A DNA stretch of 64,000 bases from Pseudomonadota bacterium (GTDB lineage: Bacteria > Pseudomonadota > Gammaproteobacteria > Burkholderiales > Rhodocyclaceae): positions 1-64,000 of the forward strand of contig JAFEDJ010000020.1 of the NCBI GenBank assembly GCA_018241685.1, given 5' to 3'. The notes under the pieces are model-generated. The model had not been told where the DNA came from. It did no database searches and was given only the letters and a program-made list of their open reading frames with translations. Position 1 is the first letter of the stretch. Each line of letters starts with the position of its first letter. Both the position numbers and the translations under genes were made by a program. This document shows positions 3,884-16,993 of the stretch, one piece after another.

Positions 3884-4068
3884 CGGAAGCCGATGAGATC
3901 GCGGAGAGCCTGATCCGTAAGCACGGGAATCCCAAAACTCGAATGTGGGGAAGTGCCAGAGAGTGGATCCTGACCGTCTGGCCCGATGCCCGCGTGCAGA
4001 TCGGCGACCAGATGCTCTCCAACGTTGCTGAGAGTGTCGTGGCGCAAGCGAAAGGCAATCGATCATGA
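3880..4068 (+). CDS. Small hypothetical protein
   Basis: 62 residues, with ATG overlapping the previous stop (ATGA). It reads MTEADEIAESLIRKHGN, then RMWGSAREWILTVWPDARVQIGDQM. Its pattern loosely resembles the C-terminus of the minus-strand protein at 62935-63243 (MWPEAKVLVR), so the two may be distant relatives; this is a weak similarity. Function unknown. Confidence 0.6.
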   Translation: MTEADEIAESLIRKHGNPKTRMWGSAREWILTVWPDARVQIGDQMLSNVAESVVAQAKGNRS

Positions 4069-5111
4069 CTGGCCGCCCCATCCTTTTCTCCGCCCCGATG
4101 ATCCGCGCCATCATCCGCGAGATCGAGAACCCCGGCACCGGCAAGACCGAGACGCGGCGCATCTTGAAGCCGCAGCCGCGCATCCGTCCCGAGATCGCAG
4201 ACGGATTCCTCGTGGTCTATGACGGCGACCGAGTTGCCGGTCGCCAGCGGCTCCGCTACGCGCCCGGCGACCGGCTGTGGGTGAGACACCGGTCAGACAT
4301 CTTTTCCGTTTATTTTAAGCCGATTCCGGGATGGGAGGGGTTATATGCCGCAGGCACAGACGGACAGATTTATCGCATGGATCGCGGTACTCCGTGTCCA
4401 TTGTCTGGCACCCCGTCAAGTAAGGGGTATTTGACGGTCTCTCTTAGCCGTAGTGGTGGATGGACAACATATTCCGTGCATCGGCTGGTATGCGAAGCGT
4501 TCTACGGGCCGCCGCCGTTTGAAGATGCCCAGGTGCGTCACCTTGACGGCGTAAAAAACAACAATACGCCAGAGAATCTTGATTGGGGAACGCAGGCCGA
4601 TAATTGGCAGGATAGAAAGTCACACGGACGCGGCATGGGCGCAGATCACCATGCGGCTAAATTGAGCGCGGCTGACGTTGAAGTCATCCGCGTTTCAGCC
4701 GAATCCCAGCGCGTTTTAGCAACGAAATTCGGCGTGTCTCAGTCCACGATAGGGAGCGTAAAGAACGGCCAGACGTGGGGAACCCACTTGGTCGGCGAGC
4801 GCCGCATGCCCGCATTTAAGATGTGGAAGCCTTCAATCCACATGCCACGTTGGGCGTCCCGCATCACGCTCATTGTCGAGGTCGTGAAGGTCGAGCGCCT
4901 GCAGGAGATCAGCGAGGAGAGCGCAATGCGCGAAGGCGCTGCGCCGGTCCTTGTCCCGCCGGACGGCGGCGGCGCACCGCACGTCGAAGGCTTCCGGGAT
5001 ATTTGGACCGCCATCAACGGCGCCGCGTCGTGGGACGCAAACCCATGGGTCGCCGCGATCCGCTTCCGCCCGTACCTCTGCAACATCGACCAGATGAAGA
5101 ATGGCGCATGA
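4065..5111 (+). CDS. ASCH-like phage protein interrupted in frame by an HNH endonuclease
   Basis: 348 residues in one uninterrupted frame. Residues 1-76 (RPILFSAPMIRAI, TRRIL, YAPGDRLWV) and about 244-348 (PSIHMPRWASRITLIVE, ERLQEISEESAMREG) are the two halves of the ASCH-fold protein common in phage genomes, which usually has about 180 residues. Between them lie a NUMOD4 motif (KPIPGWEGLYAAGTDGQIY), an HNH core (VHRLVCEAF, VRHLDGVKNNN, NLDWGT) and a helix-turn-helix (GVSQSTIGSVKNGQTW). ASCH proteins are thought to bind RNA or modified nucleotides. Splitting the fold may abolish that unless the insert is removed or folds as an independent loop. The start overlaps the preceding stop (ATGA). 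Confidence 0.8.
   Translation: MTGRPILFSAPMIRAIIREIENPGTGKTETRRILKPQPRIRPEIADGFLVVYDGDRVAGRQRLRYAPGDRLWVRHRSDIFSVYFKPIPGWEGLYAAGTDGQIYRMDRGTPCPLSGTPSSKGYLTVSLSRSGGWTTYSVHRLVCEAFYGPPPFEDAQVRHLDGVKNNNTPENLDWGTQADNWQDRKSHGRGMGADHHAAKLSAADVEVIRVSAESQRVLATKFGVSQSTIGSVKNGQTWGTHLVGERRMPAFKMWKPSIHMPRWASRITLIVEVVKVERLQEISEESAMREGAAPVLVPPDGGGAPHVEGFRDIWTAINGAASWDANPWVAAIRFRPYLCNIDQMKNGA
4293..4793 (+). mobile_element. In-frame HNH homing endonuclease insertion
   Basis: Residues 77-243 of the protein at 4065 form a complete NUMOD4-HNH-helix-turn-helix homing endonuclease. The bases here are visibly richer in A and T than the flanking ASCH coding sequence (TTTTCCGTTTATTTTAAGCC near the left edge), as expected for recently acquired DNA. 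Boundaries are estimated from where ASCH motifs stop and resume. I see no intein splice residues (no Cys or Ser at the left edge, no His-Asn plus Cys, Ser or Thr at the right). There is also no obvious room for a group I intron core. Confidence 0.7.
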
Positions 5112-12156: not shown

Positions 12157-12334
12157 TCTGCTGCCGCGCTCGATCGCGACACCGGAGCAGCACCGCCGCC
12201 GCGCCGCGCAACTTCGCGAGGCTGGCCGCAAGGAAAAGGCCGAGCAGTTCGAGAAGCTCGCCGACATGATCGAACGCCGGGACAAGGCCATCGACGACGC
12301 GCTCGGTGTCGATGCCGGAGAAGGCGAAGTCTGA
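12131..12334 (+). CDS. Small helical protein between portal and head protein
   Basis: 67 residues from ATG 12131; an ATG at 12140 is equally possible. It overlaps the end of the portal gene, and its stop overlaps the next ATG (TGATG). The sequence is one charged helical hairpin (QHRRRAAQLREAGRKEKAEQ, FEKLADMIERRDKAIDD). Function unknown; its position suggests a role in head assembly. Confidence 0.6.
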   Translation: MGQMTISDDLLPRSIATPEQHRRRAAQLREAGRKEKAEQFEKLADMIERRDKAIDDALGVDAGEGEV

Positions 12335-14241
12335 TGGCAGCGCGGAAACGCCTGAAAGTCAAAGGCAAGGTCGTCCGCGCGGTCCGGCCGAATGTCGGTC
12401 TGGAGATTCTGTACCGGAAGCGCCTCTACAAGCTCGTCGACGACATGTGCCGATCGGTGCAGTGGTGGGTGACGGCCGGCTATCGCCGCGTCAAGCCGGA
12501 ACTGGCAATGGACGCTCCGGCCGATCCACCGGTTGTGAAGGTGGTCAACATCGGCGGCGCGCGGCCATGGATGGCCATGATCGGGGGCCAGCCACTCCGG
12601 GCCGACACCGGATACGAGTTGCGATTCGCCACGGAAGAGAATGCGCGGCGCGCGGCGCGCAGATTCCTTGGTGAGATGCTGCCGGCCGACGAGATGCAAG
12701 CCATCATGGCGGACCTCACGGCTCAATGGCAGGCAGCCTTCGATGAAGGCGCCGAGAGGATGGCTCGATCATTCTCCAAGGAATCCTCGAAGTTCACCGA
12801 CGCCCAGATGCGAAAGACTCTGGCCGACGCCGGCTTCACAGTCCGCTTTACGCCGACTCCGGCGCAGATCGACGTCCTCCGGGCTTCGGTTCATGAGAAC
12901 GTGGCGCTGATCAAGTCCATCCCGCAGCAATATCTCAAGAACGTCGAGGGTCTGGTGATGCGATCGGTCCAGCGCGGCCGCGATCTCTCCACGCTCTACG
13001 AAGACCTCCAGAAACAGCACGGGGTGACGCGCCGTCGCGCCGCGCTCATTGCGCGAGATCAAAACAATAAGGCCACCTCGGTGTTTCAGGAGACCCGGCG
13101 CAAGGAACTCGGCATCACCCAGGCGATCTGGATGCACTCGCACGGCGGAAAGACCCCGCGGCCGACGCACGTCGCCATGGACGGAAAGCTCTACGACGTG
13201 AACAAGGGCATGTGGGACTCGCACGAAGGGAAGTTCGTTTTCCCCGGACAGTTGATAAACTGCTTCCCGGGAGATGAGGTGGTCCACCTAGACCGGAATA
13301 TTCGGACCCTTTGGCGTTCGTTTTTCGATGGACCAATGGTCCACATCCGTGTGGGTGCCGATCTGCTCAAGGGTACATTTAACCACCCAATACTCACCAG
13401 CCGTGGGTGGTTGCCGATGAATGAAGTTCAGTGCGGCGACGATGTCGTCTGCATGGCGGGTGAGGGTGGCGGCGTCGTTCGCGACCAGAAAGACCATACG
13501 ATATCGTTCGCCGATCTTTTCGATGCGGCTTCGCGTGTTTTTGTTCAGGTGCGCCGAGATGCTCGCGGTTTTAATTTCCACGGCCAAATCCCAGACGACG
13601 ATGTCGATGAGATAGAGATCGTTGACCAAGACCTGCTGCTGAAAATCCTCCCCAGCTTGCGCCAAGATGAAGGCGACCTCTCGTTCGCCAAATCCAATGG
13701 CGGGGTTGAGGGATCCCGTCTCAGCCGATCTCTGCATGTTACGCACGCGGACGGACCGAGCTTTACGCAAAAGAGCTCTTCGCTCATCGACGGAGGCGCG
13801 GTTCATACGTCTGATGTTCGCGTGGCTTCGATTGCGCATCACACCGTTCCGCTTGAGGACCTGGCGGATATTGGAGGCGGAGTGTCGAGGAAATCCCAAC
13901 TCGGATGCTATAGCGGTGGTGCCGTAGCCGAGCTTGTAAAGCCCCAAAATAACATCGGTGAAAGCGGTCCAGTTGATGCGCCCATCAACGGCAATCCCTT
14001 GGGCGCGGACCTTCTTGGACAGTTCGTCGGGATTGCAGCCGATCGCGGCTGCCGCAGCTTTGCATGTGGCACCACTCGCTATGAGTTTCGCCGCGTGATC
14101 GATAAGGCTGTCGGGGATTTTTCTGGACATGTCTACACCATGGAGACCGGGGTCGGTGTCTATAGCGTTGGTGCAGCAAGAATACAGGCAAAAAATTGCC
14201 GCTGCGTCAGTAAATCCGTCATTCCGGCGCTGAAATCGTGA
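12334..14241 (+). CDS. Mu F-like minor head protein interrupted by an intein
   Basis: 635 residues. The flanking parts (1-309 and 622-635) form a phage head morphogenesis protein of the Mu gpF/SPP1 gp7 family: RRRAALIARDQNNKATSVFQ, then IWMHSHGGKTPRPTH, GKLYDVNKGMWD and FVFPGQLINC. The family normally ends PGQLINCRC. Here LIN is followed by a 312-residue insertion beginning CFPGDEVV and ending IQAKN, after which CRCVSKSVIP resumes. Excision would give a 323-residue protein of normal size. The family helps assemble and mature the procapsid. The insertion is annotated separately. Confidence 0.88.
   Translation: MAARKRLKVKGKVVRAVRPNVGLEILYRKRLYKLVDDMCRSVQWWVTAGYRRVKPELAMDAPADPPVVKVVNIGGARPWMAMIGGQPLRADTGYELRFATEENARRAARRFLGEMLPADEMQAIMADLTAQWQAAFDEGAERMARSFSKESSKFTDAQMRKTLADAGFTVRFTPTPAQIDVLRASVHENVALIKSIPQQYLKNVEGLVMRSVQRGRDLSTLYEDLQKQHGVTRRRAALIARDQNNKATSVFQETRRKELGITQAIWMHSHGGKTPRPTHVAMDGKLYDVNKGMWDSHEGKFVFPGQLINCFPGDEVVHLDRNIRTLWRSFFDGPMVHIRVGADLLKGTFNHPILTSRGWLPMNEVQCGDDVVCMAGEGGGVVRDQKDHTISFADLFDAASRVFVQVRRDARGFNFHGQIPDDDVDEIEIVDQDLLLKILPSLRQDEGDLSFAKSNGGVEGSRLSRSLHVTHADGPSFTQKSSSLIDGGAVHTSDVRVASIAHHTVPLEDLADIGGGVSRKSQLGCYSGGAVAELVKPQNNIGESGPVDAPINGNPLGADLLGQFVGIAADRGCRSFACGTTRYEFRRVIDKAVGDFSGHVYTMETGVGVYSVGAARIQAKNCRCVSKSVIPALKS
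13261..14196 (+). mobile_element. Intein in minor head protein
   Basis: Residues 310-621 of the head protein. Block A starts at Cys310 (CFPGDEVV), block B is GTFNHPILTSRGWLP, and blocks F and G are GHVYTMETGVGVYSVG and QAKN. The +1 residue is Cys622, so standard Cys1/Asn/Cys+1 splicing chemistry is available. The penultimate residue is Lys rather than the usual His, which is tolerated in some inteins but may slow Asn cyclisation. The central part has no LAGLIDADG or HNH motif on this strand. The endonuclease is instead readable on the opposite strand at 13288-14130. Confidence 0.85.
13288..14130 (-). CDS. Antisense homing endonuclease within the intein (HTH plus PD-(D/E)XK/Vsr-like)
   Basis: 280 residues on the strand opposite the intein and lying entirely inside it. 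Residues 13-46 and 60-96 are helix-turn-helix units (ATCKAAAAAIGCNPDELSKK; LGYGTTAIASELGF). The nuclease core has GERE (about 148-151), a beta strand with Asp176 (YLIDIVVW), then AVEIK (183-187), an Arg-rich helix (RSRIEKIGERYR) and FLVAND. It ends with PPTAGEYWVV. This order matches Vsr/PD-(D/E)XK-type endonucleases of phages, from memory. Codons look natural (high G/C at position 3). The ATG at 14130 was chosen as the last start before the first HTH; its ribosome-binding site is weak. Each antisense codon is the exact reverse complement of a sense codon. Confidence 0.7.
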   Translation of the reverse strand: MSRKIPDSLIDHAAKLIASGATCKAAAAAIGCNPDELSKKVRAQGIAVDGRINWTAFTDVILGLYKLGYGTTAIASELGFPRHSASNIRQVLKRNGVMRNRSHANIRRMNRASVDERRALLRKARSVRVRNMQRSAETGSLNPAIGFGEREVAFILAQAGEDFQQQVLVNDLYLIDIVVWDLAVEIKTASISAHLNKNTRSRIEKIGERYRMVFLVANDAATLTRHADDIVAALNFIHRQPPTAGEYWVVKCTLEQIGTHTDVDHWSIEKRTPKGPNIPV

Positions 14242-14525: not shown

Positions 14526-14849
14526 ATGACAGACGCCGATACCGACCAAGTCCGCGAGGGGATGCCGTCCTCTGATCCGCTCATCGGCGAGGCCGTCGAA
14601 AAGCTCAAAGCCGAACTCGGAAAAGACATCGAGGCGGCGATCGCGCTTATCACCGAAAACGTGAAACAACTCCTTGAGGCCCTCGGTCTCCGGATTGATG
14701 GAGTTGAGGAGCGTCTCTCCAAGCTCGAAGCACCCGGCGACGCCCGCGATCTCGGTGAACCGGTGCCGACGGCAGAGGGCCTGCAATCCCCCACCGTGAC
14801 CTTGGCGGACCGCGTCAGCCGCCTCGAAGGCAAGCTCAAGCACCTCTGA
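14526..14849 (+). CDS. Coiled-coil protein before the prohead protease
   Basis: 107 residues with a good ribosome-binding site (AAGGGGAGC). It is acidic and helical (AVEKLKAELGKDIEAAIALI, RIDGVEERLSKLE) with a C-terminal coiled coil (LADRVSRLEGKLK). Its stop overlaps the next ATG. It may be a small scaffold or assembly factor, judged only from position. Confidence 0.6.
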   Translation: MTDADTDQVREGMPSSDPLIGEAVEKLKAELGKDIEAAIALITENVKQLLEALGLRIDGVEERLSKLEAPGDARDLGEPVPTAEGLQSPTVTLADRVSRLEGKLKHL

Positions 14850-16993
14850 TGCCCCCGGTCTCCGATAGGCAAAAACGCGCGATGTGGGCTGCCGCCAACG
14901 GCAACTCCACGCTCGGCATCCCGCAGAGTGTCGGGAAGGAGTTCGTCGGAGACGCGGCCGGCAACGGAAAGCACGCCGCCGGAGTGGTATTCGTCGCCCC
15001 AGATGGCGACGTGCTGCTCCTGCGGCGCGCATCGACCGAAAAGAACTACGGTGGCCATTGGGGCCTGCCGGGAGGCGGCGGCGAAGACGGCGAATCACCC
15101 GAACAGACGGCGCGCCGGGAAGTCACCGAAGAGATGGGCGGAGCCGCGCCAGAGGTCGCATACCGGCCGATGAACCGTCGCCAGACGCCGACGGGCATGG
15201 TTTTCCACACATTCGCGTGCCCGGTCGACGAGAAGTTCGTGCCGACGCTCGATGGCGAACACACCGGGTACGCTTGGGCGTCGCTCGACATGCTGCCGCG
15301 CCCGCTCCATCCCTCGGTTGAGGAAGACCTCGGTGCCAACCTCGGCGCCGCCGAAGACATGGCCCCCGAGGACTGGCAATCGCTGCGCGAGAACTTCGCG
15401 AAGTGGACCCGCGAGGAGCAGGCCGAGCCGGAGCACGCCGAAGACGCCGCAATCGACCCATCCATTCTCGAGGCCATCGCCCAGCAGCGCGCGGCCGGCG
15501 CGACCCCGCAGATGGCCTTTGATTGGGCCATGAAGCTGCAGGAATCATTCCCCGCGCACCGGCCGACCGGTGGGGTCTTCGCTTTCGACCGGGACAGCGT
15601 CCGCGACTTCGATCGCGACGGCCGCATGCACGTCAAGACCGCCAATATCTCGAAGGCTTGCATCAATCCGTACCTCGGCAGCGAAATCCCGGACTACGAA
15701 AAGCTCGGCCTCGCCCCGGACAAAATCTACAAACTCCTTCGTCATCCGGAGGAGTTGGAGCGCGCCGCGGCGACGTTCAACAACCTCCCGCTCCTCGACG
15801 ACCACGTCGCGGTCAACGCGCAGGATCACAAGCCGGACCGCGTCGTCGGCTCGCTCGGCACGCACGCCACATACGAACATCCTTTCTTGAAAAATAATCT
15901 CGTGGTATGGGCGAAGCACGCGATTGATGGAATTGAGTCCGACGAGCAAAGGGAATTGTCGAGTTCGTACCGGTACCGCGCAGACATGACGCCGGGGGTG
16001 TACGAAGGCGACCACTACGACGGCGTAATGCGCGACATCGTCGGCAACCATGTCGCACTCGTGAAAAAGGGACGCGCCGGCACCGATGTGGTGGTCGGTG
16101 ATAGCCAACTCCAGGAGAACGAAACCATGAAGACCAAGCTGACCCGGTCGGGCCTCTTCGCGATGGGTGCCATTGCTGCTGCGATGACTCCGATCCTCGC
16201 CAAGGATCAGGCCCTCGATCTGTCGTCGGTCACGAAGAAGCTCGTCCCCGGCAAGTCGCTCAAGGATCAGCGCGGCGCCATCATGGACGGTCTCAAGACC
16301 CACAAGCTCGCCAAGGACGCCAGCCTGGACAGCGTCGTCGGCCTCCTCGACAAGCTCGATGATGCCAAGGGCGTCGATGACGCCATGGAGCCGAACGCGG
16401 CCCCGGTGGTTGCCGCCGGCCAAGCCGACGCCGACGAGGCCATGGATGACGGCGCCGGTGCGCGCATCGCGGAATATCTCCGCGGTTGCATCGGTCGCGC
16501 TCTGACCGAAGAAGACATCGCCAAGGTCGCCGAGATGGCTGCCGCGCCGACCGCGACCGACGCCGATCCGAAGGATCAGGACCCGGCCAAGCCGACGGCG
16601 CCGGCCGCGAACGACGAGGACGACGACGAGGAGAAGGTCGACAAAAAGGCGATGGACGCCGCGCTCAAGGCGACCGCCGACCGCGTCCGCGCCGACACCC
16701 TCAAGGTCGTCAATGAAATCGCCGGCGCCCGCGACTTCATCGAGCCGTGGGTCGGCAAGATCAGCGCCTCCATGGCATTCGACAGTGCCGACGGCGTCTA
16801 CGGCCAGGCGCTCAAGATGCTCGGTGTCGAAACGAAGGGCATCCATCCTTCGGCGTTCAAGGCCGTCCTGAGCGCCCAGCCGAAGGCCAACGCGGCCCCG
16901 GCCAAGCGCCTCGCCAACGACTCGGCGTCCAAGGGCGATGCGGCATCGTTCGCTGAGACCTTCCCGAACCTCGCGAAGGTCGGCATCGGCTAA
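14849..16993 (+). CDS. NUDIX hydrolase - DUF2213 prohead protease - scaffold fusion
   Basis: 714 residues. Residues 5-35 (RQKRAMWAAANGNSTLGIP) resemble the start of phage head-maturation proteins. A NUDIX domain follows, with a complete box of the form G-x5-E-x7-REVTEEMG near residues 75-97; NUDIX enzymes hydrolyse nucleoside diphosphate-linked compounds. Residues of about 248-425 match DUF2213 prohead proteases (HVKTANISKACINPYLG, NNLPLLDDHVAVN, ELSSSYRYRADMTPG, DIVGNHVALVKKGR). The rest is acidic and alanine-rich, typical of a scaffold. The protease should cleave scaffold during capsid maturation. The NUDIX fusion is unusual, and a second start at 16127 may give the scaffold alone. Confidence 0.82.
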   Translation: MPPVSDRQKRAMWAAANGNSTLGIPQSVGKEFVGDAAGNGKHAAGVVFVAPDGDVLLLRRASTEKNYGGHWGLPGGGGEDGESPEQTARREVTEEMGGAAPEVAYRPMNRRQTPTGMVFHTFACPVDEKFVPTLDGEHTGYAWASLDMLPRPLHPSVEEDLGANLGAAEDMAPEDWQSLRENFAKWTREEQAEPEHAEDAAIDPSILEAIAQQRAAGATPQMAFDWAMKLQESFPAHRPTGGVFAFDRDSVRDFDRDGRMHVKTANISKACINPYLGSEIPDYEKLGLAPDKIYKLLRHPEELERAAATFNNLPLLDDHVAVNAQDHKPDRVVGSLGTHATYEHPFLKNNLVVWAKHAIDGIESDEQRELSSSYRYRADMTPGVYEGDHYDGVMRDIVGNHVALVKKGRAGTDVVVGDSQLQENETMKTKLTRSGLFAMGAIAAAMTPILAKDQALDLSSVTKKLVPGKSLKDQRGAIMDGLKTHKLAKDASLDSVVGLLDKLDDAKGVDDAMEPNAAPVVAAGQADADEAMDDGAGARIAEYLRGCIGRALTEEDIAKVAEMAAAPTATDADPKDQDPAKPTAPAANDEDDDEEKVDKKAMDAALKATADRVRADTLKVVNEIAGARDFIEPWVGKISASMAFDSADGVYGQALKMLGVETKGIHPSAFKAVLSAQPKANAAPAKRLANDSASKGDAASFAETFPNLAKVGIG
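16127..16993 (+). CDS. Nested scaffold protein from internal start
   Basis: The ATG at 16127 is in frame with the protease and is preceded by CAGGAGAACG at near-ideal spacing, giving a 288-residue product. It would contain the acidic scaffold region (DEDDDEEKVDKKAMDAALK) and the conserved-looking C-terminus (DFIEPWVGKISASMAFDSAD). Lambda C/Nu3 is a precedent for a scaffold made from an internal start within the protease gene. Inferred from the ribosome-binding site and domain boundary. Confidence 0.6.
   Translation: MKTKLTRSGLFAMGAIAAAMTPILAKDQALDLSSVTKKLVPGKSLKDQRGAIMDGLKTHKLAKDASLDSVVGLLDKLDDAKGVDDAMEPNAAPVVAAGQADADEAMDDGAGARIAEYLRGCIGRALTEEDIAKVAEMAAAPTATDADPKDQDPAKPTAPAANDEDDDEEKVDKKAMDAALKATADRVRADTLKVVNEIAGARDFIEPWVGKISASMAFDSADGVYGQALKMLGVETKGIHPSAFKAVLSAQPKANAAPAKRLANDSASKGDAASFAETFPNLAKVGIG

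Follow-up and report, generated by a model that had tools for sequence, protein, structure and literature searches.

The question raised by this locus is whether one stretch of DNA can encode, on its two strands and in the same codons, both an intein and the enzyme that would mobilize it. In the window, by which we mean the whole 64,000-nucleotide stretch that was analysed, a head protein gene carries an in-frame intein, and the complementary strand of that intein carries a long open frame resembling a nuclease gene. The sequence-only reading had proposed an element with splicing on one strand and mobility on the other, and this proposal was supported: we consider a mobile intein of this kind to be highly probable (roughly 0.88). 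The two protein families, the codon register, strand-specific selection, doubly constrained codons, empty insertion sites, and states of decay are directly supported; splicing, transcription and translation of the antisense gene, cleavage, its specificity, and homing are inferred.

The host gene matches Phage_Mu_F (PF04233, E 6.7e-11) in Pfam and the head morphogenesis family phrog_324 (E 1.1e-72) in PHROG, and it adjoins a portal gene (PF06381). The intein is inserted between the N and the CRC of the conserved INCRC site of the head protein, and the register of the antisense frame (Table 1) is exact, as nuclease residue r faces intein residue 291-r and the codons are reverse complements of each other. 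The boundaries of the intein, its Cys1, Asn, and Cys+1, and the 280-residue antisense frame in exact reverse-complement register had all been claimed before and held; the claimed 323-residue product holds as a prediction, since splicing is inferred. The open frame by itself was rejected as evidence, because 79 of the 247 in-register 280-codon stretches opposite the other forward-strand genes of the window are also open in this G+C-rich DNA. The same reservation had been made at the outset, and it held; comparative evidence decides instead. An RNA intron or other structured RNA was rejected as well, as Rfam matches are absent from the window. The same prophage-like region contains a second, unrelated homing-endonuclease-like gene, encoding a 348-residue HNH_3 and NUMOD4 protein (4065-5108, forward strand), and at 14849-16993 on the forward strand a NUDIX domain is fused to DUF2213 in a single ORF.

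Table 1 Features of the intein and of the putative nuclease gene on its complementary strand (positions in the window)
Feature	Positions	Strand	Remarks
Mu gpF-like head protein gene	12334..14241	+	Intein host; precursor 635 aa, predicted spliced product 323 aa
Intein	13261..14196	+	312 aa, Cys1 ... Asn312, then Cys+1
Putative antisense homing endonuclease gene	13288..14130	-	280 aa, within the intein
HTH unit 1, residues ~5-45	13996..14118	-	AF2 helices 7-18, 23-30, 34-43; structural matches to HTH domains over 5-45
HTH unit 2, residues ~54-96	13843..13971	-	PF13384 HTH_23, E 2.1e-5 over 61-90
PD-(D/E)XK (Vsr-like) nuclease core, E149, D176, E185, K187	13372..13698	-	Structural matches, invariant residues
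Antisense C-terminal tail, residues 258-280	13288..13359	-	Read-out of intein block A/N2, without constraint of its own
Intein block B, TFNHPILT	13369..13398	+	His42; complement is the GEYWVV strand of the nuclease
Intein sub-domain, residues 81-139 (ExxF ... FHGD)	13501..13677	+	Predicted folded, outside the Hint core, faces the nuclease core
Dual-coded motif, sense F-H-G-(D/Q), antisense (V/L)-A-V-E	13576..13587	+	E185 is the catalytic Glu
Sense shadow linker, intein residues 147-265	13699..14055	+	Predicted disordered; faces the DNA-binding part of the nuclease
Intein block F, GHVYTMET	14125..14148	+	Complement is the nuclease start codon and the usual Shine-Dalgarno position

The sense insert is very probably a genuine Hint intein, as judged by its profile, termini, fold, and in-frame insertion relative to intein-less alleles; autocatalytic excision and ligation are inferred. 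In Pfam searches, PF14890 Intein_splicing matched 72 of 74 family members; the window intein has no Pfam match of its own and matches the family profile at E 1.9e-21. Its AF2 model superimposes on the Mtu RecA intein with Z 12.1 and rmsd 1.4 over 107 residues, with both ends aligned. The splicing residues of the window copy are Cys1, T39..H42 of block B, the terminal Asn312, and Cys+1, and of these H42 and N312 are invariant in the family alignments, His42 being kept in 85 of 85 representatives within a block B that is over-conserved on both strands. Once the intein is removed in silico, the window head protein aligns without interruption with intein-less heads, such as that of Pseudomonas phage Orisa03 (40% over 19-319), and the intein-less phiEc3 head is 77% identical to a Salmonella host protein and aligns across the junction. 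Between the splicing blocks, intein residues 81-130 are predicted with pLDDT above 84 by AF2 and show sense-specific conservation independent of the antisense protein; mirrored covariation might inflate the AF2 fold prediction for residues ~80-139, and we therefore rely on the codon evidence for this sub-domain. The shadow linker has a pLDDT of 30-50 in the AF2 model and sense-specific conservation near null (mean z -1.2 opposite nuclease residues 55-165). A sense-strand endonuclease was rejected, as the middle of the sense protein is disordered and no endonuclease family was found in the sense translations, which upholds the earlier claim that none is present.

The antisense protein is in all probability an endonuclease of the Vsr/I-Bth0305I type with two HTH units, as supported by profile, structure match, and invariant residues; site-specific cleavage is inferred. 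The AF2 model (pLDDT 84.6) shows a long helix in addition to two HTH units and a PD-(D/E)XK core, and its closest structure matches are I-Bth0305I (3r3p, Z 9.8), Vsr (Z 9.6 for 1cw0, and 8.6), and 3hrl (Z 9.3). A profile built from 74 antisense proteins found the homing endonuclease I-Bth0305I (3r3p) in the PDB at E 4e-7, and also the DUF559-like 3hrl. Against Pfam, the family matched REase_MTES_1575, DUF559, and resolvase-type HTH, with HTH families in most members and the resolvase HTH_7 in 45 of the 74. Y173, D176, and E185 are invariant across the 74 sequences, and the tail (residues 258-280) has a pLDDT below 50. The structure predictions and the structure and Pfam matches thus bear out the earlier claim of two HTH units and a Vsr/PD-(D/E)XK core with D176 and E185. 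The inclusion of GEYWVV in the nuclease signature failed and was rejected, since these residues are the complement of intein block B (NHPILT), although they do form a strand in the nuclease model.

The antisense in-register layout is widespread in phages. A tblastn search with the window antisense protein returned 20 phage records at about 28-32% identity, among them phages of Klebsiella, Aggregatibacter (Aaphi23), Edwardsiella (MSW-3), Vibrio, Gordonia, and Salmonella, and every examined match runs antisense to a head-protein CDS; two other members used as queries returned 106 and 122 records, nearly all of the checked ones lying antisense inside inteins. A scan of viral contigs with the single window protein gave no matches, and scans with three sub-family alignments gave 109 loci. 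At nearly all of these the nuclease lies antisense in a Hint intein, in the same register and with the sense frame open throughout; the remaining two antisense registers are interrupted by stops, and the G+C content ranges from about 0.36 to 0.69. When only the sense intein (residues 1 to ~143) was used in an independent scan, 80 loci were found, and the antisense nuclease was present in register in 80 of 80; this sample is biased to close intein relatives. The deduplicated set holds 160 inteins in 143 clusters at 90% nucleotide identity (GC 0.34-0.70); 159 of the inteins have an open sense frame, and 157 carry an antisense ORF that reaches 200 codons or more. A full-length match was present in only 2 of 398 bacterial genomes of the phylum (the window's own and G569), indicating that the element is rare there; weak DUF559/HTH matches in bacterial genomes were not counted as members. 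Two loci with HTH similarity only (L012, L049) were left out of the family, and the codon statistics exclude a copy at a contig end (L034) and a contig with a frameshift that breaks both frames (L070/L179).

The sequence-only reading had named three outcomes that would refute it, and none was borne out: the antisense protein does match nucleases, namely 3r3p and Vsr with the scores given above; very many phages carry antisense homologues, with the identities stated for the named ones; and antisense stops in related inteins are restricted to a few decayed copies (L116/L117, L234). It had also called for selection to be compared on both strands. Among 11 Guernseyvirinae, substitutions at sense codon positions 1:2:3 are distributed as.26:.16:.58 in the N-side extein and.17:.09:.74 in the C-side extein, and as.62:.13:.26 in the middle of the intein. 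This inversion shows that it is the third antisense position that varies freely there, and thus that selection acts on the antisense frame.

Codon usage and conservation separate three classes of codons, namely sense-only, antisense-only, and doubly constrained. In 85 antisense genes, TTA, CTA, and TCA occur 0 times against 625 expected, and the converse count, of codons whose complement would stop the antisense frame, is 1 against 645 expected in 85 representatives, with expectations taken from the extein codon usage of the same gene. In a reciprocal test, codons were shuffled synonymously with one protein fixed and the conservation of the other protein was tested. Over nuclease residues 55-165, 94 of 105 columns show antisense-specific conservation, and the sense protein has almost none there (mean z -1.2). 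The antisense signal is absent upstream of the antisense start (mean z -1.5) and in the C-terminal tail (mean nuclease-specific z -1.7), where the sense signal is strong, and the nuclease core together with block B is constrained on both strands. Shared ancestry inflates the shuffle z values, and the null regions serve as internal controls. The clearest doubly constrained codons are those of the dual-coded motif (F106-H107-G108-D109 in the window intein), which is frozen on both strands. Read on the antisense strand, the F-H-G codons are GAA in 74 of 85, GTG in 75 of 76, and GCC in 79 of 82 cases, where 44, 16, and 33 are expected; the excess over each gene's own usage has P values of 8e-12 to 1e-49, binomial values that take no account of shared ancestry. 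At other conserved antisense residues, the third positions are free. When pLDDT is averaged over blocks, confident structure is predicted on both strands for 90 of the 280 codons.

An inference from the genetic code may explain why the register is universal: in this register only TTA, CTA, and TCA in the nuclease can stop the sense frame, and all three can be avoided synonymously. In the other two registers, stops would depend on neighbouring residues. By the same logic, the two functions should be separately switchable with the other protein unchanged, because a codon that stops the nuclease can still read as Leu or Ser in the sense frame and so be synonymous there, and vice versa.

The start of the nuclease gene is also written into the intein. 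The ATG of the nuclease gene lies opposite the block F His that precedes VYN. Across the family, CAT encodes this His in 64 of 69 cases (29.5 expected), and the Leu that follows is written CTC, which reads GAG(G) on the other strand, in 54 of 71 (11.8 expected). The block F codons therefore probably double as Shine-Dalgarno sequence and start codon of the nuclease gene across the family; antisense translation itself is inferred. The window copy has no canonical Shine-Dalgarno sequence, as its block F reads T-M-E and not N-L-E, and it is perhaps weakly expressed for this reason. A search for a sigma-70-like promoter of the antisense gene gave none. In Klebsiella and Edwardsiella phages (L001, L003), small genes on the strand of the nuclease lead straight into it; it is conceivable that these form an opposite-strand operon that supplies antisense transcription, which remains an inference.

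We propose the following mechanism. Sense transcription of the head gene would yield a precursor from which the Hint intein excises itself together with the shadow linker, and the host gene would survive because the intein splices out. The complementary strand would act as a separate nuclease gene, translated from its own start inside block F. During co-infection or superinfection, the nuclease would cut an intein-less allele at the conserved insertion codons, and repair of the cut would copy the intein and the nuclease gene into the gap, so that the element spreads.

Natural variants illustrate mobility, escape, and decay. Most hosts are proteins of the Mu-F, minor-capsid-2, or VG15-like kinds. 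The module also occurs in a terminase large subunit (L252) and in a UDG-DNA polymerase A (L220), which are unrelated to head proteins, indicating that it has moved between non-homologous sites. A co-conversion gradient around the insertion site was sought in Guernseyvirinae, and none was seen. The nuclease resides inside the intein or, in Acinetobacter phage P1068 (L123, OQ689089), beside the head gene: in this phage the head gene is uninterrupted, and a free-standing nuclease relative (2001-2894) lies convergent to its 3' end. The free-standing gene contains 12 TTA/CTA/TCA codons, and its complement has 12 stops; its place in the tree is within the antisense copies, as sister to L056 (support 0.978, with weak deeper support). 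With the forbidden codons refilled and antisense copies around it in the tree, the gene resembles an escapee that is no longer bound by the constraint. Decay takes several forms. One pair of copies (L116/L117) has a stop in the nuclease and an intact intein; one contig (L070/L179) has a frameshift that breaks both frames; and in L234 (3001-3576) most of the disordered linker was lost in-frame, so that part of the DNA-binding region is gone and a 192-residue intein with FHGD remains, which amounts to a natural minimal intein.

Three rival explanations deserve consideration. The antisense protein could be a mere mirror image of conserved intein codons, with nothing made from that strand. It is true that G+C-rich in-register antisense frames are often open, as in the 79 of 247 control stretches of the window, and that blocks A and B do yield mirrored "conservation", seen in the tail residues. 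Nevertheless, substitutions pile up at the antisense third position, antisense conservation survives when the sense protein is held fixed (the 94 of 105 columns) and vanishes outside the ORF (the negative mean z upstream), the profile matches a known homing endonuclease, and A-T-rich phages share the layout, so that we regard this explanation as practically ruled out. Alternatively, an expressed nuclease might serve the phage, in recombination, superinfection exclusion, DNA processing, or regulation, and not intein homing. This is favored by the absence of cleavage data, by a fold that is common to repair enzymes such as Vsr, and by the unseen co-conversion tract. However, the nuclease is tied to inteins both at one conserved-site family and at unrelated genes, the nearest relative with a solved structure is a homing endonuclease, and some copies lose or truncate the nuclease yet keep the intein, as expected of a selfish function; a phage role in place of homing is thus highly improbable.

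It might also be argued that many present copies are fossils, in which the nuclease is kept mainly because the intein needs the doubly coded codons. The intein does constrain the FHGD and block B codons by itself, nuclease-broken copies exist (L116, L234), and the window copy lacks the usual Shine-Dalgarno sequence. Against this, the DNA-binding half is strongly constrained on the antisense strand alone, its sense side being nearly free, and the catalytic residues are intact in almost all copies, and we give this explanation very little weight. We return, then, to a mobile intein with splicing and mobility on opposite strands. A bolder form of this reading is that bidirectional coding is itself a survival strategy, which locks the nuclease in place and slows the usual decay of the homing cycle: loss of the nuclease core would harm splicing of an essential phage gene, because the A-V-E codons of the nuclease active site are also those of F-H-G-D, in this reading an essential motif of the intein, and the start and ribosome site are block F. 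We lean slightly against this extension.

Compared with known systems, the elements combine familiar parts in a different arrangement. Classical mobile inteins with LAGLIDADG or HNH enzymes (PI-PfuI, PI-PkoII, PI-MtuI) share the Hint fold, the termini, and the placement of the mobility enzyme between blocks B and F. However, their endonuclease is a same-frame domain of one polypeptide, a criterion that the window-type element does not meet, whereas here it is a gene on the other strand, and because of this the nuclease is at no point part of the splicing precursor. I-Bth0305I and the Vsr-like phage homing endonucleases share the nuclease fold and core motifs; I-Bth0305I was described as a mobile intron protein, whereas the new family is associated with inteins and lies on the strand opposite its host. 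In fractured genes (Dassa et al. 2009, cited in PMC10448857) the intein is split, and its halves reportedly flank an independently translated homing endonuclease gene of the same Vsr-like family (Dassa et al. 2009). In these, the host gene and the intein are split into two ORFs, whereas the new elements have an unbroken sense frame and one predicted cis-splicing precursor; with the sense frame continuous in 159 of 160 inteins, the criterion of a fractured gene or split intein is not met.

Nuclear group I introns of slime moulds carry antisense homing endonuclease genes, and the likeness lies in a mobility gene opposite the host strand. The intron RNA can do without an open sense frame, however, and for this reason no two-way protein coding is needed there. 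Antisense overlapping gene pairs are known in phages and bacteria and likewise yield two proteins from one DNA stretch; the new elements differ from them in the overlap over the whole length of the nuclease, the codon register, the conservation over very distant phages, and the active parts that share codons. A full-text literature search, with most subscription papers outside its reach, yielded no account of an intein with an endonuclease on its antisense strand. As far as this literature shows, the architecture is probably undescribed, as the sequence-only reading had suspected, and its scope is larger than first thought.

The family offers a large natural comparative set for asking how unrelated folds share codons, how strongly overlap slows evolution, and whether overlap shields selfish genes. 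The element is present in long-sequenced phages, such as Aaphi23 and many phages of Salmonella and Klebsiella, in which annotation usually gives the head protein only. In the records it is the sense protein that is annotated, at best as containing an intein (Escherichia phage Snoke, MK931441), and a few call the antisense ORF hypothetical (PK1). The PHROG profile phrog_15127 ("head protein") covers the intein and the shadow linker; because it spans the intein, it also matches inteins in polymerase and terminase and may mislead annotation.
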